A stretch of DNA of 64,000 bases from Symbiodinium natans (Eukaryota; Sar; Dinophyceae; Suessiales; Symbiodiniaceae), in the NCBI GenBank assembly GCA_905221605.1, contig CAJNDS010002399.1:381513-445512 (forward strand). Direction: 5' to 3'. This document shows positions 1 to 62,531 of the stretch, in pieces. The notes under the pieces are model-generated. The model was not told the DNA's origin, did no database searches, and was given only the letters and a program-made list of their open reading frames with translations. Both the position numbers and the translations under genes were made by a program. The stretch's first letter is position 1. Each line of letters starts with the position of its first letter.

Positions 1-259
1 TAGCATGTAGGGTTTAGGGTTTAGGGTTTAAGGGTTTAGGGTTTAAGGCGGCTGTAGGGTGTTAGGGAGTTTGTTTCTTGGTAGCCCAGTGGTACCCTTG
101 TGCCCTTTCTGTTGGTTCTAGGTCCTCGCGAGGGAATCCGTGCATGAGAGCGCTAAACCCTAAACCCTAAAACCTAAACCCTAAACCCTAAACCCTAAAC
201 CCTAAACCCTAAACCCTAAACCCTAAACCCTTTTGTGTTGGTTCTAGGTCCTCGCTGGG

Positions 260-8093: not shown

Positions 8094-8584
8094 TTACTGG
8101 GCAAGGTAATTTTTTTTACTGGGCAAGGTCATTTTTTTACTGGGCAAGGTCATTTTTTTACTGGGCAAGGTCGTTTCGTCCAAAAAAACGACCTTGCCCA
8201 GTAAAAAAATGACCTTGCCCAGTAAAAAAATGACCTTGCCCAGTAAAAATGTTACTGGGCAAGGTCATCTTTTTACTGGGCAAGGTCATCTTTTTACTGG
8301 GCAAGGTCATCTTTTTACTGGGCAAGGTCATCTTTTTACTGGGCAAGGTCATTTTTTTACTGGGCAAGGTCATTTTTTTACTGGGCAAGGTCATTTTTTT
8401 ACTGGGCAAGGTCATTTTTTTACTGGGCAAGGTCATTTTTTTACTGGGCAAGGTCATTTTTTTTACTGGGCAAGGTCATTTTTTTACAGGGCAAGGTCAT
8501 TTTTTTTACTGGGCAAGGTATTTTTTTAACTGGGCAAGGTCATTTTTTTACTGGGCAAGGTCATTTTTTCACTGGGCAAGGTCG
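8094..8584. repeat. 21-22-bp minisatellite ACTGGGCAAGGTCAT(T)n with an inverted block
   Basis: About 23 units of ACTGGGCAAGGTCAT plus a T-run. Units before about 8180 and after 8250 are in + orientation. Three units at about 8182-8249 are inverted, which creates two large hairpins. Because the unit is often 21 bp long, all six frames stay open; the long open frames here are artefacts, not genes. Sub-variants (ATCTTTTT, ATTTTTTT) are clustered. Confidence 0.95.
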
Positions 8585-8824: not shown

Positions 8825-11800
8825 GCCCGCACAGAGCATCGTAGACTGAGGTTTAGGGTTCAAGGTTTAGGGTTTAGGGTTTAGGGTTTATGGTTCTGAA
8901 CTTCGCGTGGAAAGTGGTGTTGAGGGTTCATGTAGGGCTCAGTGTTTGGGGTTTAGGGTTTAGGGTTCAGGGGGAGTTTAGGAATTTGGGGTTTAGGGTC
9001 GGCGTTCTAATCGGGTTATGAGGCGGGGGACCTATGCACCCCCTTGTATCGCCCTATCGACCCTGATTTTCCTATTTCCCTCCCAAGAAGGACTGCTAGG
9101 TCGGGATGCTGGGCTTTAGGCTTTAGGGGATGTGCGGGATATGACGCGTAACTTGGTTCTTAGTAGCGAGTTGGTGAGAACTGGGTTTTCCCGTGGAATC
9201 CTGTTTCGGGTAGGGTCCGGCACCTGCTGACACGGAATCCTTGGTTTTGGGGTTTAGGGTTTAGGGTTTAGGGTTTAGGGTTTAGGGTTTAGGGTTTAGG
9301 GTTTAGGGTACAGCGCGCCTCTTTTGCTCGAATCCAAGGTGCCGCGCAAACTGCAACGAAGTTCCCTCAGCAGATCTTGTTGGAAGCCGAAGTCTATGTC
9401 CCAAACAATCCCTGGGTTTTGGAGTACTAGGGTTTAGGGTTTAGGGTTTAGGGGTTCGGGTTTCGGGTTTAGGGTTTAGGGTTTAGGGTTTCGGGTTTCG
9501 GGTTTCGGGTTTAGGGTTTAGGGTTTCGGGTTTCGGGTTTCGGGTTCAGGGTTTAGGGTTTCGGGTTTCGGGTTTAGGGTTTAGGGTTTCGGGTTTCGGG
9601 TTTAGGGTTTAGGGTTTCGGGTTTAGGGTTTAGGGTACCTGGGTTTTGGAGTACTATACTGTAATACTTTGTTTGGTTCTGGGTTCTTATTGTAGCTACT
9701 TAGACCTAAAAAGTAATTGTATACTTTTTTCCGTGGTCTACTCCAAAATAGGGATCCCTGTACACTGTATTTGCTCTCCGCTGCTTGGAGGTTCATGGGT
9801 ACTGATAACCCCAATTTATCGGTCTACTTGGATCCTACTTAGAGGACTTCTGGGGGCTTATAAGTACAGTTATGCTTCGGGTGATATTGCGGTTATAAGT
9901 AGCCTGAACCCCTAGACTCTAGACCCAGACAGAATGGTGTTCTCGGAGAGAGAGGTCCCCGTTCTAAACCCCTTTCAGGAAGCAAGACGGGATTTCTAGC
10001 GCAGGCGCAGAGTTCACAACCCCTAACCCTAACCCCTAAACCCTAAACCCTAAACCCTAAACCCTAAGCCCTAAGCCCTATGCCCTAAACCCTAAACCCT
10101 CACCCAGCTGCGGCCAGGGCGAGAGTCAGGACACGTCGGATGAAGGGCCTCCCAGTGGCTCCTCTAAGCTGTGGATCAAGGCAGGTTTAGGGTTTCGGGT
10201 TTGGGGTTTGGGCTTTAGGGTTTAGGGTTTAAGGTTTAGGGTTGAGGGTTGAGGGTTTGAGGTTTAGGGTTTAGGGTTTAAGGTTTAGGGTTGAGGGTTT
10301 TGGGTTTAGGGTTGGGGGCGGGGGGCGGAGCTAGGTTTGTTGCTTTGAACTTTAGGGCTTGAGAATTTAAGGGTTTTGATTATAGGTTCAGGGTTTTGGA
10401 GTATAACTCAAAGGTTTTGATCGTTTTTTCTCTTTTGGGGGGGGGGGGGGGGGGGGGGCTGAGGGGCGGCTTTCTTTTTTCGTAGGGTCCTCAAGGGAGG
10501 GGGGTAGGTACCCAAGGAACCTTAGGGAAGCTCGGGCAGCCTTAGGGAGAAGTGGGGAGTATCAGGGATCTTTGGCTTACATACCCCCCTTGAGCCCTAA
10601 ACCCTAAACCCTAAACGCCCCCCTTGAACCCCCAAGCCCCACGAAGATGCCACCATAGGGGCCTGTCGAGCTGATGCTCTGCATAGGACGGGTTTAGGGT
10701 TTTTAGGGCTTTTAGGTTTTTTAGGGTTTTAGGGTTTTTAGGTTTTTTGGGGGTTTAGGGTTTTTAGGGTTTTCAGGTTTTTTTTGGGGTTTTTGGGGTG
10801 TTTAGGTTTTTTTAGGGTTTTTACGGTTTTTAGATCTTTTGGGGTTTTGGGGGTTTTTAGGTTTTTGGGGTTTAGGGCAATCGCTTCAGCTGGTTCACCT
10901 ATGTAAACCCTAAACCATATAAACTGCCAGGGGTTAAGACTCGTGCCCCTAAGGTTGTACCCCTAAAGGTTCCCTTAATATACTCTATTATGGGCCGTAT
11001 ACTATATCAAGGATCTTTAAAACGGTTCCCCAAAACCCTACCTCAAGCGTCCAATGTACAACAACCCTAAACCTTAAACCCTAGACCCTTAAGAACCGTA
11101 AACCCCGGAACCTAAAGTTTAGGCCCGAAGCCCTAAACCTTAGGCCCTGACCCAAGCCCCAAAGCGTAATTAAACCCCAAACCCTATTCAAACCCGAAAC
11201 TCTACACCCCAAACCCTAAACCCTAAACCCTAAACCCCCAAACCCCCAAACCCCCCAACCCCCCAAACCCTAAACCCTAAATATCGACTCGACCACTCTC
11301 TGCGTCAGGAGATGGATCAGCGCATTACGGTGAGCGATACTGAGAGCCGCTCGCCTCCTCTGTGGAACCACACCCGCAGCCCCACCTCTAGCCCTAAACC
11401 CTAAACCCTAAACCCTAAACCCTAAACCCTAAACCCTATTTAAACCCTGAGCCCTAAATCCTACAGGGGTTGTGTCAGGGTAGGAGCTGAATGGTTGCGC
11501 TCGTTTGCTGAATGTGCCTAGTGAGCCTGACCTCTGAGGGTAGTTGCATGGTCCCTTAATGTGCTCCCTTAGGGATCTGAAGTAAGGGCCCTTAGGGTTT
11601 AGGGGGGGATGTAAGGCCTAGAGCTCCCCAATCAAGGGCCCATACCAAGGGACCCCAGACCCTAAACCGTAAGCTCAGGGTTTTAGGCTATAGGGTTCAA
11701 CCCTAAACCCTGAACCCTACATTCAATCTTCAACCTCAGAATTCTTCGACTAAGCCTTCGGTCCTGCGCATTTGCCCTGTACTACAGGGGCCTCAACTAG

Positions 11801-18157: not shown

Positions 18158-18269
18158 TGGCTTGCATGTTATGGGGCCCTCTCGCGCTTTGTCGGACACG
18201 CTCCATTTGTTTGGGGCCCCGCGGCCGTTCGAAGAGCTCCCCCGCGGTCCAGCCTACTTGGAGGTTCGT
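18158..18269 (+). CDS. Exon-like island
   Basis: GC-rich 110-bp block, open in all three + frames. One reads VMGPSRALSDTLHLFGAPRP. A GTACTT donor follows. Frame unresolved. Confidence 0.4.
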
Positions 18270-18358
18270 GGTACTTACTAACCATATTAGGGTTTAGGGT
18301 TTAGGGTTTAGGGTTTAGGGTTCCATGAGCCTCCAGCCTACGAATCCTTAAATGTGGC

Positions 18359-25676: not shown

Positions 25677-25742
25677 GAGCTCTTCATGACGCCGATGCTC
25701 CGGCTGTCCAACGATCCGGTGAAAAACGTGCGACTCTGTTGG
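25677..25742 (+). CDS. HEAT-repeat-like protein, exon
   Basis: Twenty-two codons: ELFMTPMLRLSNDPVKNVRL then CW. The pattern L-x-x-L-x-x-DP-V-x-NVR is typical of HEAT repeats such as those in protein phosphatase 2A scaffold subunits. HEAT repeats form protein-binding solenoids. Acceptor GCCCAG, donor GTCGGC. It joins in phase to 26120. The gene may continue upstream. Confidence 0.55.
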
Positions 25743-25963
25743 GTCGGCTCCTCAGTCTAGGGTTTAGGGTTTAGGGTTTAGGGTTTCGGGTTTGCCCCTT
25801 TAAGCAAAAAAGGCACCCTTGCTTAATCTTAGGTTAGTGGACAAACGTGCGCTTTGTTGGGTCGACTCCTCAGTCCGCTTTTCTGGTTCGAGTGTCCTAG
25901 CAGGACCTAAACCACAAGCTAGGAGCCTCAGAAAGCTGAAGAGCTTCAGACTCAGGTGGTGAC

Positions 25964-26115
25964 CCTTAAACCCTAGACCCCTAAACCCCTAAACCCCTAA
26001 ACCCCTAAACCCCTAAACCCCTAAACCCCTAAACCCCTAAACCCCTAAACCCCTAAACCCCTAAACCCCTACAACCCTAAACCCTAAATCCTAAGCCCTA
26101 AACCCTAAACCCTAT
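25964..26115. repeat. CCCCTAAA 8-mer array passing into CCCTAAA, between 12-bp direct repeats
   Basis: About ten units of the 8-mer CCCCTAAA, then heptamers. TCAGGTGGTGAC stands on each side, at 25952-25963 and 26116-26127, and spans the exon acceptor. Confidence 0.9.
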
Positions 26116-26119
26116 TCAG

Positions 26120-26196
26120 GTGGTGACGGTCCTGCCACACCTCCGAAAGGTGGGTCGCCTGGGTCGGATTCTGAGAGGAGATGCCCGGGCTTTGAA
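26120..26196 (+). CDS. HEAT-repeat-like protein, exon
   Basis: Acceptor ATTCAG, frame VVTVLPHLRKVGRLGRILRG. A donor could be GTGGGT at 26150, or further right. Joined to the previous exon it reads KNVRLCWVVTVLPHLRK. Confidence 0.5.
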
Positions 26197-27163: not shown

Positions 27164-30100
27164 GCTCCATCTTCTCTGCTGGATCCTGATAGATCTGCGC
27201 CAGCAACGGCCCGCGCACGCAGAAGTGTTTCTTAGGAGCCGAATGAGTTACACTTTACACTTTTTGGGATACTACAATCCGCCTAAAGAATTGAAAGTGT
27301 GCACTCTTTCGGGGGCTTATGAACCCAGCAACTAAGCTAAGCCCCAAACAACCCCCAAAAGCCCCAAAACCCTTAAGCCTAAAACCCCGAAATTCTAAAA
27401 CCTGTTTAAACCCCTAATTTTTTTGGGGGGCTTATGAACTCAGCAACGAAGGTTTGCGGGCTTGGTGCATGACCTGGTGCTGCCGTTTCTGGCCTCCTGG
27501 CGGCAGCCCTGCGCTGCGCTCGCTGCTGGAGGTCACCACACCTGCGTGGTGACGAAGGACAGGGAGCCTAGGCAACATCCCAGATCCTATTTACTACCAA
27601 TGCTTAAGAACTCCCAAGACATAAAGAATTATTCCTTATGAGGGCAATTTAGGGATTACTTTTTCTGGGGTTCTCAAGCACATAGTAGTTGAGGGTACAT
27701 ATGGCTTACATAGAGTTCTTGCCTTTGCTTGCCAGCCGAGGAACTGGTGTGCTTCGGGCACAATGACTTCGGCCAGTGCACCGTGCCCGCCAGCCTGGGT
27801 CCTGTGCTCGCAGTCGCGGCGGGGGCCGAGCACACCTGCGCCCTCTCGGCCGACGGCAAGGTCGTGTGTTCCTTGTTGGGCACGACGTGAGACCCTAAAC
27901 CCTAAACCCTAAACCCTAAACCCTAAACCCTAAACCCTAAACCCTAAACCCCTCGACGATTTTTGGGGCCATTCCAGGGGGCCCATTAGGGGCTCCCCTC
28001 TTCTTGCGACTCCTTGTCTTCAAAGGGGGTTGTAGATAAGTATCAACTTTCTGACATTTTCATGTGCCCTGTGCTGCTGTGCATATATGTATGTGTGTGT
28101 ATACACATATATTTATGCACACACACACACACACACAATCCCTCCGCTAAACGCCCCCCCCCCCCCCCCCACCCACCAAAAAACAAAAAAAACAGAGAAG
28201 GCCTGTTTGGAGGGCCTCCTTTTCACGCTCCCCCCCCCACCCCCCTCATAAAAAGGTTTTGGGAACAACGAGTTCGGCCAGTGCGACGTGCCTGCAGACC
28301 TGCGCCCGGTGGTGGCGGTGGCAGCCGGCGGTTCGCACACCTGTGCCCTGCAGAGGAGCCCCTGAAAAGGTGTACTTAAACTATAGCCCCCTTCGAAATT
28401 AGTTGGTGCTTTGGAGTAAAATTTCGAAGGGAATGTTAAGCAACTGTTTTTAAGGGGTTCTAAGCGGAGTGCCTTACAGAGGAGCCCTGAAAAGGTTTGC
28501 TTTAAGTCCTTGTCGGCGTCCAAGAGTTTGGGGCTTCCTGGGTTTTAGCCGCTCTAGCGCTTAGGGCTTTTTGGGGTAGATTCCTCAAGGCTTCTAGGAT
28601 TTTTAGGGGCTATAGGGTTTAGGGTCTTTTTGGGGTAGTTTTTTCAAGCAAGGGGGGAGCTCTTGCGCGCCCTCGTTGTGCCTTGCGGAGGAACGGCGTC
28701 TTGGTCTGCTTCGGCCACAACGGCCTTGGGCAGTGCGATGTTCCTCTCGACATCGACCCGGTCGTGGCCGTCTCCGCAGGCCCTAAACCCTAAACCCTAA
28801 ACCCTAAACCCTAAACCCTAAACCCTAAACCCATCTCCGCAGGGGGCGCCCACACGTGCGCGGTGACGGCGGCTGGCAAGCTCGTTGCTTTCGGAGACAA
28901 CGACCGGGGCCAGGTGGGATACCGCAGCCTAAGCATCTATCAGTTTTATCCCCTTGCTAGCCCCTATATGTTGAGCATGTAATATCAAAACATGACCCTT
29001 TTTCTTTGCAGATGGACACTTTTTTTAGACCTGGACTTTTGGGACTAGAACATCAAACAGATCAACAACGAAAGACACGGAATAACCCTAAACCCTGAAT
29101 CCTAACCTCTAAGCCCTGAACCCTAAGCCCTAAAATCCTTGAACCCTAATGTCTAAATCAACCCTAAGCCCTAAACCCTAAACCCTAAACCCTAAACCCT
29201 AAACCGAAGGTGGATGTGCCGCCGGAACTGGGCCCAGTGGCGGCCGTGGCTGCCGGAAGCCACCACACCTGCGCCTCTCACTCTGCGATTCAGGGTTTTA
29301 GGGTTTTAGGGTTTTAGGGTTTTAGGGTTTTAGGGTTTTAGGGTTTTAGGGTTCGAGGGTTTGAGGGTTTAGGGTTTAGGGTTTAGGGTTCAGGGTTCAG
29401 GGTTTTTAGGGTGTAGGGTTCAGGGTCACAGGGTTTAGGGTTTAGGGTTTGCGGGCCGCTCCCTCTCTCAGGTTTTTAGGGTTGGGGTCATAGGGTCTTT
29501 GGGGTTTTGGGGGTGAGATTTTTGGTGAGGTTTAAGGTGGAGGGCTTAGGCATTGGGGGGTGCATCAATGTTTGAGGGTCTAGGGTTCAGGGATTGGGGC
29601 GTTTCGGGTTCGAGGGTTTAGGATGTGGTCTGCATGATGTAGTGCTTCCGCGTGCTCGTGGGATGCACAAGAAGGGTCCCCTTAGCAGTGGCCCCCGAGC
29701 TCTAGTAGTTGGTCTTATGGAGCTTGAGGACCACCACCAAAAAATCTCTCTAGAAAGGGACCCTGAAACCTGCTACGCCGCATAACCCAGCCATGCCTGC
29801 GATCGGCTCTTTGACCTCGGAACCCACGAAAAAGCTCCTACGGAACCCTATGGGTCCCCAAGAGTCCCTGACTTTGCTGTTTTGGGCTTAGGGCTTAGGA
29901 ACAATGAGTCCTAAACCCTATAAATCCTAAACCCGAAGCCCTAAACCCTAAACCCTAAACCCTAAACCCTTAACCCTAAACCCTAAACCCTAAACCCTAA
30001 ACCCTAAATTCTGTGATACCCTTGAAGACCCACTGGGACAGACTTCAGGCTATTACGGCAGTTGGGGAGTTGGTCTGCTTCTGGGCTGCTGATATGGATG

Positions 30101-31517
30101 AAGATGTTTAGGGTTTAGGGTTTAGGGTTTAGGGTTTAGGGTTTAGGGTTTAGGGTTTAGGGTTTAGGGTTTAGGGTTTAGGGTTTCGGGGTGTAAGGGC
30201 GTTAGAATTTTTGGGTTGCGGGCTTCGGGTTTTGGATTTTTGGGTTTGGGGTTTGAGGTTCAGGGACACCATGCCATTTTACCATGTTTCTCAGTCTACC
30301 CGTTTAGTTCAAGACAGCTCCTTACTGCAACAGGCGCACCGTAACAAGAAAGCCATGCTAGCTTGTTGTTCTCCACGTATTCTACACCCTAAACACGGCT
30401 AACTTTGGGCTTCGGGTTGCCAGAGTACGGCAATCTCACACAATGTTTGACCACTCCGTATGAGTGTTCTCCCAACGTAGGGCCGGCCGCTGCTGTGCAG
30501 CCGCACAGACGAGAATCCTTTAGAATGACCGCGCCTTCAAAAAGCAATACCCCTAGACCCTAAACCCCAAGCCAGAAACCTTAAACCCCAGACCCCAAAC
30601 CCTAAACCCCAAACCCCAAACCCTAAACCCTAAACCCTAAACCCTAAACCCCAAACCCCAAACCCTAAACCCTAAACCCTAAACCCTAAACCCTAAACCC
30701 TAAACCCCAAACCCCAAACCCCAAAGCCCTGCTCTTCATATCCCCGACCTTGTCAGCCCAGGCTTCGGCGGCAACGTCCTCGGCCAGTGCGACGTGCCTC
30801 CGAACCTGGGCCCCGTCAGGGCAGTGGCGGCAAGGCTCGGGTCTACGGTTCATTAGGGTTTAGGGTTTAGGGTTCATAGGGTTTGGGGTTTAGGTTTAGG
30901 GTTTAGGGTTTTGGGTTTTGGGTTTTGGGTTTTGGGTTTTGGGTTTTGGGTTTGTAGGGTTTGTAGGGTTTATAGGGTTTATAGGGTTTATAGGGTTTAT
31001 AGGGTTTATAGGGTTTATAGGGTTTTTAGGGTTGGTTTATAGGGTTTAGGGCTTAGGGTTTAGGATTCAGGGTTTATAGGGTTTTACCCCCAACCCTGAG
31101 CCCTAAACCCCACAAGCCCCGATAAACCCTACAGACCCCAGAAGCCCCTACAGACCCCGTACGCAGCCTCTATAGACCCTGTAGCCCTAAACCCTAAACC
31201 CCTAAGCCCTTGAACCCAACTTTTGGGTTCACGGTTTAGGGTCTAGGTTCCCTGGGCTGCAAGGCTTCTCTACACCTGCGTCGTGACGATCACGGGAGAG
31301 CTGGTCTGCTTTGGCTGCATCGACTTCGAGGCTATCGTTGCGGGTTTTTGGGCTTATGGTTTGGGGCTTAGCAAAATCAAGAAGCGCCAATTTCTCTTAC
31401 TGCCTGCTTCAAGGGGTGCGCTTTGGGAAGGAGGCTCAATAAAGAGACCTCTTGATAAGTAACTTTGAATGGGATCTTAACCCCAAACCCTCAACCCTAA
31501 ACCCTCAACCTTAAACC

Positions 31518-31577
<60 letters not shown>

Positions 31578-33107
31578 ACCCTAAACCCTAAACCCTAAAC
31601 CCTAAACCCTACAGGAGATCCACCAGCCTCCCGGCCTTCATGCTGTGGTGGCCGTGGCGGCGGGCACTTGCCACGCCTGCGCGGCCAAGGAGACGGGCGA
31701 GGCCCGCTGCAGTACTAAACCCTAAACCCTAAACCCTAAATCCTAAACCCTAAACCCGACACCCGACCCAAAATGTTGAGGGTTAGGGTTTCGGGTTCCT
31801 GGTTTAGGGTTTAGGGTTTAGGCCTAAGGGTTGACCCCAAACCCGAACCCAAGCCTAATTTCCTCCCACTTTCCGCCTATCATTTGCACTCGCCGTTGTT
31901 GATATTTTGATGTTAGCAAGGCGGGTGAGTACGTTGCCCAGCAAGTTCCGAAATGCCGCGCCCCGAGCCCTAAAACCCTAAACCCTGAACCAGACCCGAA
32001 GCTGAGCCCACTACCAACACCCCTAAACCCTAAACCCTAAACCCTAAACCTTATAAGCACTTACTGATAACGGTATAATGAACTAGGCTGCCCTTATAGC
32101 TGCTCCGTCCCTAAACCTCAAAACCCCGCGGCCCGCAACTACCCTCTCTTTATTCCTCAATACGTGCTATTGGGAGCTCTAGAATCCCTATGAAGAGGAG
32201 TTGAGCCTAGAGTGAAGCCCCGATTCCTACGCAGGCTCTTGGGACCTCTTATATATCCCTTTTTGGGTATACGCGGATCATATTCAGGAACATTTTGCAG
32301 AGGGTTTTTCAGGCCCGTCCTCGATTCTGAACTCTTTTCCCTGAGAGATTTTTCTTGGCGACAGGTGGTATGTTTTGGGCACAACGACCTCGGCCAATGT
32401 GCGGTTCCCACTGGTCTCCTGGTGCCTTGGGGGCGTTGGGGAGCACTAAACCTAAACCCCCAAACCCCTAAACCCCTAAACCCCTAAACCCCTAAAACCC
32501 CTAAACCCCTAAACCCCTAAACCCCTAAACCCCTAAACCCCTAAACCCCTAAACCCCTAAACCCCTAAACCCCAAACCCCCAAACCCTTAAACCCCTAAA
32601 CCCCTAAACCCCCAGACCCCGAGCCTGGCTACCTGAACAGCTTAAACCCTAGACCCTACACCCGAAGGCTCCATAAAGCCTGAAGCTGGGGTTCTTAGGG
32701 TTTAGGGTTTAGGGTTTAGTCTTTAACCTTGTCAACCCATAGACAGTTGAAGTTTCTTCGGGCCACCCAAGGCACCCTAAACCCTCCAAGACCTTATAGA
32801 CCCCTGCAAACCCGGAAAAACCCTGAAAAACCCTAGAAGCTCTAAGAGCCATGAAAACCCTAAAATTAACAGCCCTACAAAAACTAGTAAGAAATCCCTG
32901 AACAGCCCGAAGAGCCCTAAAAACCCTTAAGCCCCTAAAGCCTCAACCCCTGAAGCCTCAAACCCTAAACCCCAAACCCGAAACCCGAAACCCGAAACCC
33001 GAAACCCTAAACCCTAAACCCTAAACCCTAAACCCTAAACCCTAAACCCTAAACCCTAAACCCTAAACCCTAAACCCGCCAGGTGGCCACCGCAGGCTCC
33101 TTGAGAC
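27088..33107 (+). CDS. RCC1-repeat (regulator of chromosome condensation-like) protein gene
   Basis: Exons at 27088-27163, 27452-27563, 27741-27867, 28256-28355, 28691-28779, 28843-28913, 29210-29272, 30049-30076, 30762-30834, 31264-31330, 31615-31701, 32365-32421 and 33083-33107 join without a frame break. The product has about seven RCC1-type repeats, each with the pattern VCFGHND-x-GQC-x-VP followed by V-x-AVAAG-x-HTC. RCC1 repeats form a seven-bladed propeller that in other proteins binds chromatin, GTPases or ubiquitin-ligase partners. Such proteins are abundant in dinoflagellates. Donors are GC (7 of 12), GT (3) and GA (2); all introns end in AG. Further RCC1-like or adjoining exons may run on to 35.6 or 37.2 kb. 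The start, stop and partner domains are not settled. Confidence 0.8.
27452..27563 (+). CDS. RCC1 gene exon, first repeat
   Basis: Acceptor ACGAAG; frame FAGLVHDLVLPFLASWRQPC then AALAAGGHHTCVVTKDR. The AAGGHHTC core is RCC1-like. GA donor (GAGCCT). Confidence 0.75.
27741..27867 (+). CDS. RCC1 gene exon
   Basis: Frame ELVCFGHNDFGQCTVPASLG then AVAAGAEHTCALSADGKVV. Acceptor GCCGAG, donor GTTCCT. It joins to the next exon as VVC-FGNN. Confidence 0.85.
27868..28255 (+). other. RCC1 gene intron with telomeric tract and CA/poly-C repeats
   Basis: 388 bp: a CCCTAAA array at 27894-27950, a CA/TG microsatellite at 28080-28136 and C runs at 28154-28170 and 28231-28248. Open frames here are not genes. 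Confidence 0.7.
28256..28355 (+). CDS. RCC1 gene exon
   Basis: Frame FGNNEFGQCDVPADLRPVVA then VAAGGSHTCALQ. Acceptor ATAAAAAG, GA donor (GAGCCC). Confidence 0.85.
28342..28506. repeat. Insertion with long flanking direct repeat at an exon end
   Basis: The exon end plus the start of the intron (core CAGAGGAGCCCCTGAAAAGG, 28351-28370) recurs imperfectly at 28469-28506. Between them is a small hairpin element with perfect 12-bp arms CCCTTCGAAATT (28389-28400) and AATTTCGAAGGG (28420-28431). Confidence 0.7.
28691..28779 (+). CDS. RCC1 gene exon
   Basis: Frame NGVLVCFGHNGLGQCDVPLD then IDPVVAVSA. Acceptor TGCGGAG. The GC donor is the first base of the telomeric intron plus C. Confidence 0.85.
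28780..28842 (+). repeat. 63-nt intron made of CCCTAAA repeats
   Basis: GC...AG intron consisting of CCCTAAA units plus CCATCTCCGCAG. TCTCCGCAG stands both before it (28771-28779) and at its end (28834-28842), exactly 63 bp apart. Removing 63 bp restores VAVSAGGAHTCAV, a textbook RCC1 core. Confidence 0.85.
28843..28913 (+). CDS. RCC1 gene exon
   Basis: Frame GAHTCAVTAAGKLVAFGDND then RGQ; donor GTGGGA. The next exon starts GTGGAT, so AGGTGG is repeated across the intron. Confidence 0.85.
29210..29272 (+). CDS. RCC1 gene exon
   Basis: Frame VDVPPELGPVAAVAAGSHHT then C. Acceptor CCGAAG; GC donor GCCTCT chosen by phase. Confidence 0.8.
29286..29352. repeat. TTTTAGGG 8-mer array
   Basis: Eight uniform 8-base units just right of the exon. 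Confidence 0.95.
30049..30076 (+). CDS. RCC1 gene exon (28 bp)
   Basis: Frame AITAVGELV plus one base; acceptor ACTTCAG, GC donor (GCTTCTGG). The next exon begins GCTTCGGCGG, so GCTTC is repeated across the intron. Confidence 0.7.
30106..30186. repeat. TTTAGGG array, 11 units
   Basis: Perfect array in the intron after the 28-bp exon. Confidence 0.96.
30762..30834 (+). CDS. RCC1 gene exon
   Basis: Frame FGGNVLGQCDVPPNLGPVRA then VAA. Acceptor AGCCCAG, GC donor. GCAAGGCT occurs both at this exon end and at the next exon start. Confidence 0.85.
30907..31082. repeat. TTTTGGG and TTTATAGGG variant arrays
   Basis: Six TTTTGGG units followed by eight TTTATAGGG units: two monotypic blocks side by side. 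Confidence 0.9.
31264..31330 (+). CDS. RCC1 gene exon
   Basis: Frame LLYTCVVTITGELVCFGCID then FE. Acceptor CTGCAAG, GC donor. Confidence 0.8.
31503..31612. repeat. CCCTCAA array passing into CCCTAAA
   Basis: About ten CCCTCAA units then five CCCTAAA units, ending at the acceptor of the next exon. Confidence 0.95.
31615..31701 (+). CDS. RCC1 gene exon
   Basis: Frame EIHQPPGLHAVVAVAAGTCH then ACAAKETGE. Acceptor CTACAG, GC donor. Confidence 0.85.
32365..32421 (+). CDS. RCC1 gene exon
   Basis: Nineteen codons: VVCFGHNDLGQCAVPTGLL. Acceptor GCGACAG, donor GTGCCT. Confidence 0.85.
32456..32610. repeat. CCCCTAAA 8-mer array
   Basis: About 17 mostly uniform 8-base units. Confidence 0.95.
32998..33077. 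repeat. CCCTAAA array, 11 units
   Basis: Perfect tract (preceded by CCCGAAA units) directly before the next candidate exon. Confidence 0.95.
33083..33107 (+). CDS. RCC1 gene, short exon (tentative)
   Basis: Acceptor CCGCCAG, VATAGSLR, donor GTGGAG. VATAG fits an RCC1 core; the phase fits. Confidence 0.45.
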
Positions 33108-38387: not shown

Positions 38388-41080
38388 GCCCCTTGGCGGT
38401 ACAGCTCAGGTCTTTAGGGGGTTCCTCGGGTTTAGAGTTTAGGGTTTAGGGTTTAGGGTTAGGGTTTAGGGTTTAGGGTTTAGGGTTTAGGGTTTAGGGT
38501 TTAGGGTTTAGGGTTTAGGGTTTAGGGTTTAGGGTTTAGGGTTTAGGGTTTAGGGTTTAGGGTTTAGGGTTTAGGGTTTAGGGTTTAGGGTTTAGGGTTT
38601 AGGGTTTAGGGTTTAGGGTTTAGGGTTTAGGGTTTAGGGTTTCTAGGACCCAGAGTAGGCTCTTAATTCCCTTTTTTGTTGGGTTTGGGTTCCCTGACAA
38701 CCCCCTGCAAACCAAAAAGGGCACCCCCTTTGTTCCTGGGTTACTCCTGGGTCTGGTTTTCAGGGCATCTAGGGACCTAAACCCCAAACCCCAAGCCCCA
38801 AACCCCAAACCCTAAACCCGAAACCCTAAACCCTAACCCCTAAACCCTGTGTTAGGAGAAGATCCCTGAAGCCTTGGTGCAGTCTTAGGGGGTACGAGTT
38901 TGGATCGCCACTTCAAAGCACCCCAGTTGGAGGATCGCTGGGACTCAGTAAGAAAGTAGTTATAAAGTAGAGCGCTCCGTAGGGTTTTGCCCTAAACCCT
39001 AAACCCTAAACCCTAAAACCCTAAAACCCTAAACCCTAAACTAACCCTAAACCCTAAACTAACCCTAAACCCTAAACCCTAAACCCCAAACCCCAAACCC
39101 TAAACCCTAAACCCTAAACCCTAAACCCTAAACCCTAAACCCTAAACCCTAAACCCTAAACCCTAAACCCTAACCCTAAACCCTAAACCCTAAACCCTGC
39201 CCCCGCCGGAATCCGAGGAAGCAGGCGCACTCCAAGGCGTCGATCTTCTACGGCGCGGATGAGTACCTCGAGGAGCGCGTTGTGTTGAGGGGTGCAGAAA
39301 TTGAGGGCTCACGTAGGGTTTAGGGTTTAGGGTTTGGGGTTTAGGGTTTAGGGATTGTTCCGGGATACCGGAGTGTTTACACACCATCCCTAAACCTGCC
39401 CAGCCATTGCGGATAGACAGACCTTCCATGTGGCATTGAATGTATTTCTTGTCAGCCTCTAGACTGCTTCGACTCTGGCTATAGGTCCAGGGCTTCAGGA
39501 ACCCTAACCCGAAACCCCCTAATCCCTAAACCCTAAACCCTAAACCCTAAAGCCTAAACCCTAAACCCTAAACCCTAAACCTAAACCCTAAACCCCTCCT
39601 AGCGAAGCCAGTGCACTCAAACCTCATCTTCCCACCTCTACTACCCACCACTGCACCCAACCTTAGGCTCTACTACCCACCCAAACCCCATCAACTGGAA
39701 AAGCCCTAAACCCTAAAACCCTAGAACCCTAAAACTTGGGTTTTTCCACTGTGTCGGTTTTTTTGCCCTAAATCGCTTAACTCCTCCAGCCAAACCCCAA
39801 CCCCTAAAGCCCTGACCCAGGGCTCATAAATACCCTAAAGTCTCAAGCAAAAAAGCCCTCCTCTCCCAGGAGCCATTAACCTGAAATAGTTATGCTCATG
39901 TGTTCGTACGTCACATGAATCACTGCCCTGGCATCTAAGAACCAAAAACGTTCAGACCCTGAAGCCCTTAAAATTGCTCTTTGTCCCAGGAGCTGAAGAA
40001 GAAGCTGGGCTCTCCAACACGGCTTCGGAACATAGAGATCACCCTTTTTGAAGCCCTAACCCTGAAGTAGAAGTTGGAACATGCTCACCCACTTGCAGCT
40101 GCTTAGTAAGTCTCGCGAAGCCTCAAGTTGCGCTCCTGGAGTCACGGGTTCAGTTGAGGGTTTAGGGTTTAGGGTTTAGGGTTTGGGGTTTTGGGTTTAG
40201 GGTTTAGGGTTTAGGTTTGAGGGTTTGAGGGTTTGAGGGTTTGAGGGTTTGGGGTTCTGACGTGCTTTGGGAGTTGAAGCTTTTTAGGAGATTTCCGGGT
40301 TATTGGGGTTGAGGGTGCGTGTCTGCTAGGACCCAGAGTCGGCCCCCTAAACCCTAAACCCTAAACCCTAAACCCTAAACCCTAAACCCTAAACCCTAAA
40401 CCCTAAACCCTAAACCCCCTACCCCCTAAACCCTAAACCCTAAACCCTAAACCCTAAACCCTAAACCCCCTAAACCCTAAATTATTGGGGTGGAGGGTGC
40501 GTGTCTGCTAGGACCCAGAGTCGGACCCTTTTCTAGGCTACTCTGGGGTCAAGCTTGAGGTTGTCCTGTAGGGTGGCTACAATTACCTACAGAAGCACCT
40601 GAAAATCCTTGTACACTTCGATAGACCCTCAACCCTGAACCCTAAGCCCTAAACCTTATCCCTCATGCAGAAACCCTGGTCTAATATTCTGATAGGTGCG
40701 CACAGGAAGTAAGGGGTTTTCACGGAGCTTTGACTTCGGAAGCTTTGGGGATGTCACGCTTGAGGGTTTGGAAACGGTGGGAGGGGTTTAGGGTTTAGGG
40801 TTTGGGGCTTGGAGTCTAGAGGGAGCAGGTAAACTTGTGCGGTGTCCTGGAGCATCCTCCCTGCCATGGAATTTCGGAACCTAAAGCCTAAATGCTAAAG
40901 CCTAAGCCCTAATCCCTAAGCCCTAAACCCTAAACCCTAAACCCTGAACGCTGAACCCTAAACCCCGAACCAAAGCATCCGAGGAAGTATGCCCACGATC
41001 ACGAGATCGCGGCCATGAAGAACCTGCTTCCTGGTGGGCCCTGCAGGGTGCAGGGCTGCCCTAAACCCTAGCCCTAAACC

Positions 41081-62419: not shown

Positions 62420-62531
62420 TAAACCAACAAGCCCGAAGCCCTAAACCCTGAATCCCTCAGTCTCTCAAATCACCCTAAACCAACAAGCCCTAAGCCCTAA
62501 ACCCTGAATCCCTCAGTCTCTCAAATCACCC
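62420..62531. repeat. Tandem duplication, two 56-bp units
   Basis: Unit begins TAAACCAACAAGCCC and ends CTCAAATCACCC; the copies differ at about one base. Confidence 0.9.

Follow-up and report, generated by a model that had tools for sequence, protein, structure and literature searches.

Work by Roy in 2023 reportedly placed introners in dinoflagellates. According to the prevailing view, as given in the available text of PMC11453091 and in a further review, recent intron gains are mostly transposon-like introners or breaks filled with DNA of unclear origin. The same source states that introners are very active in dinoflagellates, and that GC or GA donors are found at 25–74% in Symbiodiniaceae (PMC11453091). 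For introners, target duplications of 3–9 bp have been reported, and some of these elements are without inverted repeats (PMC9860276); repeated boundaries are mentioned for dinoflagellate introns (PMC7789003). The locus described here is like the introners of Micromonas, Aureococcus, Amoebophrya and other dinoflagellates with respect to new introns, many of which have direct repeats at their boundaries. In contrast, introners form families of related elements, many of which carry inverted repeats (PMC7789003, PMC9860276, PMC11453091), and neither feature is seen here.

The neointrons of Daphnia pulex have been described as gained through the repair of staggered double-strand breaks, with direct repeats (PMC4202315). 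The available text of that paper contains no word beginning with "telomer", whereas the filler at the present locus is one defined, genome-wide repeat. In horse, 3 of 66 loci with telomeric repeats inserted at breaks show a target duplication and no other change, and two more show one combined with other changes; in the available text the authors attribute direct duplications to staggered breaks (PMC7215372). The same text reports that no human interstitial telomeric sequence lies in an exon, which did not surprise its authors given the stop codons. The present locus is like the short interstitial telomeric sequences of human and horse in having a telomeric array at a putative break, with target duplication at some loci. 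Unlike in the human cases, the insertion is in an exon and is apparently rescued by predicted splicing (PMC7215372).

Intron gain by break repair, telomeric insertion at breaks and dinoflagellate introners are thus already known; what would be new is the joining of telomere and intron. The original prediction knew of no description of telomeric DNA as an intron source, and a search of the open-licence literature agrees, since no such paper was found among the matches listed.

A telomeric insert between direct repeats in an RCC1-repeat gene

The window, a stretch of 64,000 nucleotides at the end of its Symbiodinium natans contig, contains an RCC1-repeat gene that was modelled with ten exons and nine introns (Table 1). 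The splice sites were set by hand with the repeats in view, and the model leaves out an upstream exon near 27507–27560 and both gene ends. The ten joined exons comprise 762 nt and are stop-free; pieces of matching lengths taken at random elsewhere in the window gave no open frame in any of 20000 joins. GC3 of the model is 0.81 overall, the two shortest exons having lower values of 0.56 and 0.58. The spliced predicted protein is recognised by Pfam as RCC1_2. At each of the nine acceptors the AG precedes a G, and the donors comprise two GT, six GC and one GA. Telomere-like sequence makes up 3% of the exons and 26–86% of the introns. Rfam and tRNA scans of the whole window gave no matches.

Table 1. 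Positions of the RCC1 gene model, of the 63-nt candidate intron and of further duplication-flanked telomeric inserts in the window.
Feature	Position	Strand	Basis
RCC1-repeat gene model, ten exons, nine introns	27741..32421	+	hand-placed splice sites; PF13540 E 3.4e-51
Intron 2, 335 nt, 36% telomere-like, diverged in-register repeat (17/28 positions)	28356..28690	+	gene model
Exon 3, RCC1 gene model	28691..28779	+	gene model
Left target-duplication copy TCTCCGCAG, last exon bases	28771..28779	+	sequence match
Putative intron 3 of RCC1 gene model, 63 nt, GC donor, AG acceptor	28780..28842	+	excision restores VAVSAGGAHTCAV
Insert G(CCCTAAA)7CCCA, 54 nt	28780..28833	+	sequence
Right target-duplication copy, source of AG acceptor	28834..28842	+	sequence match
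Exon 4, RCC1 gene model	28843..28913	+	gene model
Intron 7, 429 nt, 84% telomere-like, in-register duplication GGC(G/T)GCAAG|GCT, 12 nt, one mismatch	30835..31263	+	gene model
Left copy of TCAGGTGGTGAC, 12 nt	25952..25963	+	sequence match
Right copy of TCAGGTGGTGAC, 12 nt	26116..26127	+	sequence match
Second candidate telomeric intron, 164 nt, GT-AG, 94% telomere-like	25956..26119	+	excision gives open reading EPQKAEELQTQVVTVLPHLRK
Telomeric insert between 20-nt copies of TGTTGGTTCTAGGTCCTCGC holding acceptor-like TTCTAG|GTCC	110..255	+	sequence match
Telomeric insert between exact 26-nt copies (41 nt, one mismatch, telomere-like bases counted)	40317..40524	.	sequence match
Telomeric insert between two TCCAGCCTAC copies	18248..18341	.	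sequence match

Between exons 3 and 4, two exact copies of TCTCCGCAG lie 63 nt apart, as had been predicted; counting the G that follows each copy, the exact match extends to 10 nt. The direct repeat at the end of exon 3 thus recurs at the opposite end of the putative intron, which is the arrangement expected of intron gain by break repair. The DNA between the copies is telomeric, again as predicted. It does not consist of the nine heptamers originally assumed: a G is followed by seven perfect CCCTAAA units and CCCA, that is, seven units plus 5 nt, and 63 is the spacing of the copies and the length of the intron. The array is non-terminal, with a perfect run of 52 nt about 35 kb from the contig end. 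At each junction a single non-repeat base was seen by eye, a G on the left and an A on the right. These end bases leave the telomerase register unclear, which weighs against a break-repair origin.

Excision of the 63 nt yields GTC TCC GCA G|GG GGC GCC, corresponding to VAVSAGGAHTCAV, and brings the RCC1 repeat core back in frame. The predicted roles of the boundaries were borne out as well: the right copy of the duplicated target supplies the AG acceptor, and the first G of the insert together with the following C gives the GC donor. At the level of the gene model, the stretch therefore behaves as a spliceosomal intron of the GC-AG class.

In a protein search that returned 530 homologues, all 120 of those listed align through the junction without an insert, which agrees with the predicted restoration of the core. 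Gaps within six residues of the junction occur in 10 of these 120, all upstream of SAG and none at the junction. A regular expression for the contiguous RCC1 core matched 71 of the 120 listed homologues; this pattern is too strict for these repeats, and the alignment test was therefore used. Among the matches listed, the best homologue with a named organism is from Symbiodinium; two more Symbiodinium matches follow, and bacterial names appear lower down. The single S. natans protein among the matches listed shows 61% identity across 58% of the query.

If retained, the 63 nt would introduce two in-frame stops into the predicted RCC1 protein, and one could therefore suppose that the stretch is unspliced and marks a decaying gene copy or a recent null allele. 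The two best-scoring listed homologues, which are merely 56 and 67% identical across 79 and 68% of the query, would also agree with such a copy. However, the ten exons join in an open frame with the GC3 values given above, Pfam still recognises the RCC1 repeats, which a dead gene would lose, and GC donors are normal in dinoflagellates according to the available text of PMC11453091. We consider this explanation highly improbable.

The eight other introns of the gene are 284–776 nt long. Intron 3 is therefore the sole intron shorter than 284 nt, and its 63 nt are unusual within the gene, which weighs against its formation by break repair. It is also the sole RCC1 intron made purely of telomeric repeat plus target duplication. 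When donor and acceptor flanks of all nine introns were compared, they were alike in register (permutation p 0.007 for matches and 0.0014 for runs), in a comparison that was not blind, as intron 3 was included and the splice sites had been placed with the repeats in sight.

Telomere-like sequence in all nine introns, and in 46% of the window compared to about 8% in three mononucleotide shuffles (one-mismatch heptamer mask), would be consistent with an older, ordinary intron that was swept by telomeric expansion, like much of the genome's non-coding DNA, the 9-bp repeat being due to likeness of the splice signals plus chance. Three observations argue against this origin. The exact in-register run of 10 nt at intron 3 is longer than any among 72 mismatched donor-acceptor pairs, where the longest is 7 nt; the common CAG|G accounts for at most four of the 10 bases; and four of the six repeats with this RCC1 core, those near 27.8, 28.3, 29.25 and 31.66 kb, have no intron at this position, as judged by eye on the gene model. 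An older intron is for these reasons quite unlikely.

Intron 7 breaks one other RCC1 repeat, by eye one base from the position of intron 3, and probably represents an older case of this type of intron. Within it, repeats of the TTTAGGG type are followed by repeats of the CCCTAAA type, which is the arrangement of a head-to-head telomere joint. Near the donor of intron 2, CAGAGGAGCCC is present at 28351–28361 and again within the intron at 28477–28487; this recurrence suggests more than one round of duplication there.

Telomeric repeats and target duplications in the window and the genome

In the genome (759,417,921 bases in 2543 contigs), exact (CCCTAAA)3 occurs 1,184,385 times in forward and 1,185,204 times in reverse orientation; the pattern read backwards occurs 33 and 41 times. 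Telomeric 21-mers are therefore found at about 2.37 million places, dispersed and nearly equal in both orientations. The mean density of (CCCTAAA)3 is 3.1 per kb in the genome and 6.8 per kb in the window; in 16 separately sampled stretches it ranges from 0 to 11.3 per kb, five of the 16 containing none. With telomeric 21-mers spread across the whole genome, introns that contain telomeric DNA are common in it. Internal telomeric DNA is thus a property of the genome and not of intron 3. What is special to the intron 3 site is a purely telomeric insert that is abutted directly by a target duplication.

Other telomeric inserts of the window also lie between direct repeats. For the second candidate intron (Table 1), both splice sites (AG|GT) are inside the 12-nt duplicated target; retention of the insert leads to stops, and excision leaves an open frame. 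This second intron-like case with AG|GT in the duplication counts in favour of break repair. Its peptide, taken together with an upstream exon, shows weak similarity to the end of the PP2A scaffold subunit A (E 0.02), and PP2A-A was named in 18 of 18 hits, the spacing between the two query pieces having been chosen by the analyst. Pfam found no domain in this HEAT-like peptide, and queries of structure databases gave no match. When the surroundings of 13 candidate duplications were scanned for open frames, RCC1 was the only clear gene, and the preferred frame of the second candidate was left unranked. Next to the HEAT-like exon, an approximately 30-nt repeat with few mismatches (GTGCG..TGTTGGGTCG.CTCCTCAGTC) surrounds a telomeric array at 25720–25885.

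Near the start of the window, the insertion at 110–255 seems, from its sequence, to have doubled an intron acceptor and may therefore have been neutral; a likely exon follows the duplication. The exact duplication lengths at the telomeric inserts of the window are 9, 10, 12, 20 and 26 nt. Among seven duplication spacings, those of the sites at 110, 18248, 28771 and 40317 (126, 84, 63 and 182 nt) are multiples of 7 and three (86, 32 and 164 nt) are not, which is possibly due to chance. Two further observations concern repeats in the window. A 21-nt telomeric array at 10586–10627 is bordered on both sides by CCCCCCTTGA, a C-rich repeat left unscored in the masked tests described below, and a 21-bp satellite, TTACTGGGCAAGGTCATTTTT, occupies 8094–8583, with the part of the array at 8182–8249 inverted.

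To assess duplications at telomeric arrays, flanks were compared with permuted flanks. In an unmasked comparison of 164 perfect arrays, repeats of at least 10 nt were present at 19, compared to about 19.5 expected. This absence of an excess arises because the flanks of arrays often are degenerate telomere sequence and match each other. Telomere-like bases were therefore hidden, and the flanks of telomeric islands were compared with permuted flanks. In the window, a score of at least 10 was then reached at 6 of 316 islands (0.32 expected), and abutting repeats with a score of at least 9 were present at four (0.08 expected), one of which, at 62471, is by eye a tandem duplication. For 503 islands in 20 further stretches totalling 193 kb, the corresponding numbers were five (0.49 expected) and two (0.10 expected). 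Repeats of at least 10 nt that hold AGG were found near 3 of 858 islands in the window and in stretches L001 and L009–L024, compared to 0.07 expected; the three cases are the intron 3 site, 25962 and 40344. A chance 9-mer as the source of the TCTCCGCAG pair was rejected on the basis of the masked permuted-flank tests.

Compared to random non-telomeric intervals, the islands show no lead as long as tandem repeats are kept: scores of at least 10 were reached at 136 of 4914 random intervals and at 11 of 819 islands. The higher count in the controls is due to the abundance of satellites in the genome. Both sets were therefore cleared in the same way of tandem arrays and of repeats that also occurred outside the pair. 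After this filter, 8 of 819 islands and 22 of 9828 random intervals (16 of them distinct) reached a score of at least 10, and abutting repeats with a score of at least 9 remained at 5 of 819 islands and 3 of 9828 random intervals. Two of the eight, 20289 and 62471, were judged by eye to be tandem duplications and were discounted as insertions, though they stand inside the masked and filtered counts; without both, 6 of 819 remain. As 62471 is also among the five abutting cases, four are left without it. The filter further dropped three of the five cases from the independent stretches (L018 8069, L027 1702 and L027 256). The islands' lead appears only after tandem filtering, and the enrichment therefore depends on the filter. 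Target duplications are thus rare, yet with tandem repeats filtered out they are enriched at telomeric islands: about 1% of the islands carry a recognisable duplication, and most have no detectable one. This rate is low, but in horse, too, the available text of PMC7215372 gives few such loci.

Proposed origin of the candidate intron and its meaning

In our assessment, the 63-nt stretch is likely to be a young spliceosomal intron that was made in one step by telomeric fill of a staggered break. A staggered double-strand break would have occurred in the coding exon, with overhangs of about 9 nt at TCTCCGCAG. Its repair would have introduced about 54 nt of telomeric repeat, either through synthesis by telomerase or through capture of a telomeric fragment, and fill-in of the overhangs would have duplicated the target. 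The 3' splice site would then derive from the duplicated CAG|G, and the GC donor from the G at the junction together with the C that begins the repeat. On the CCCTAAA strand, CTAAA recurs every 7 nt, and its last copy is situated about 14 nt upstream of the acceptor. The CTAAA of each repeat, which we take to resemble the branch point consensus, could play a branch-point-like role. As the C-strand of the telomere contains neither GT nor AG, both splice sites must derive from the duplicated target or the junction. This would explain why AG|G is present in the duplication wherever an insert seems to have persisted in an exon.

The original prediction had placed the insert among introner-type origins. 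Insertion with target duplication, 9–10 nt and exact, holds for this site, whereas membership in an introner family was rejected. By eye, the ends of the insert (GCCCTAAA... and ...TAAACCCA) are not mutual inverted repeats. The duplication lengths listed above vary, assuming that the inserts are of one kind. As for a family of elements, the telomere unit alone is common, and the window holds one further close case, the second candidate intron. It could still be argued that a dinoflagellate introner was inserted with target duplication and that telomeric repeats subsequently took the place of its interior or enlarged it. Introners abound in dinoflagellates according to the available text of PMC11453091, and 9 bp lies within the reported range of duplications, some introners having no inverted repeats (PMC9860276, available parts). 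However, the duplication abuts the telomeric repeat directly, with just a G and an A between, the insert lacks terminal inverted repeats, and duplications of 10 to 26 nt stand at other telomeric inserts of the window. We regard such a replaced introner as unlikely. Because the duplications vary in length and no terminal inverted repeat is present, capture at a staggered break fits better than a transposon-like introner; because no more than about 1% of islands (8/819) carry a duplication, break repair also fits better than a transposase.

If telomeric fill of a break is the true origin, this gene appears to have gained an intron from telomere scrap, an intron source that was not found in the literature searched. 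The filler here has a known identity and a regular unit and is present at millions of genomic places, so that it could become possible to date and count the transitions from insertion to intron. The finding also bears on an expectation of the telomere field, expressed in the available text of PMC7215372, that exons are free of telomeric insertions owing to stop codons. A duplicated AG|G may allow the cell to splice telomeric insertions out of exons. More tentatively, and with considerable doubt on our side, telomere synthesis might be a standing, genome-wide source of introns in this lineage: an overhang bearing AG|G would let the insert be spliced at once, via CTAAA, and intron-rich genes, in which several introns consist largely of telomere-like sequence, would partly be a record of breaks patched by telomerase.
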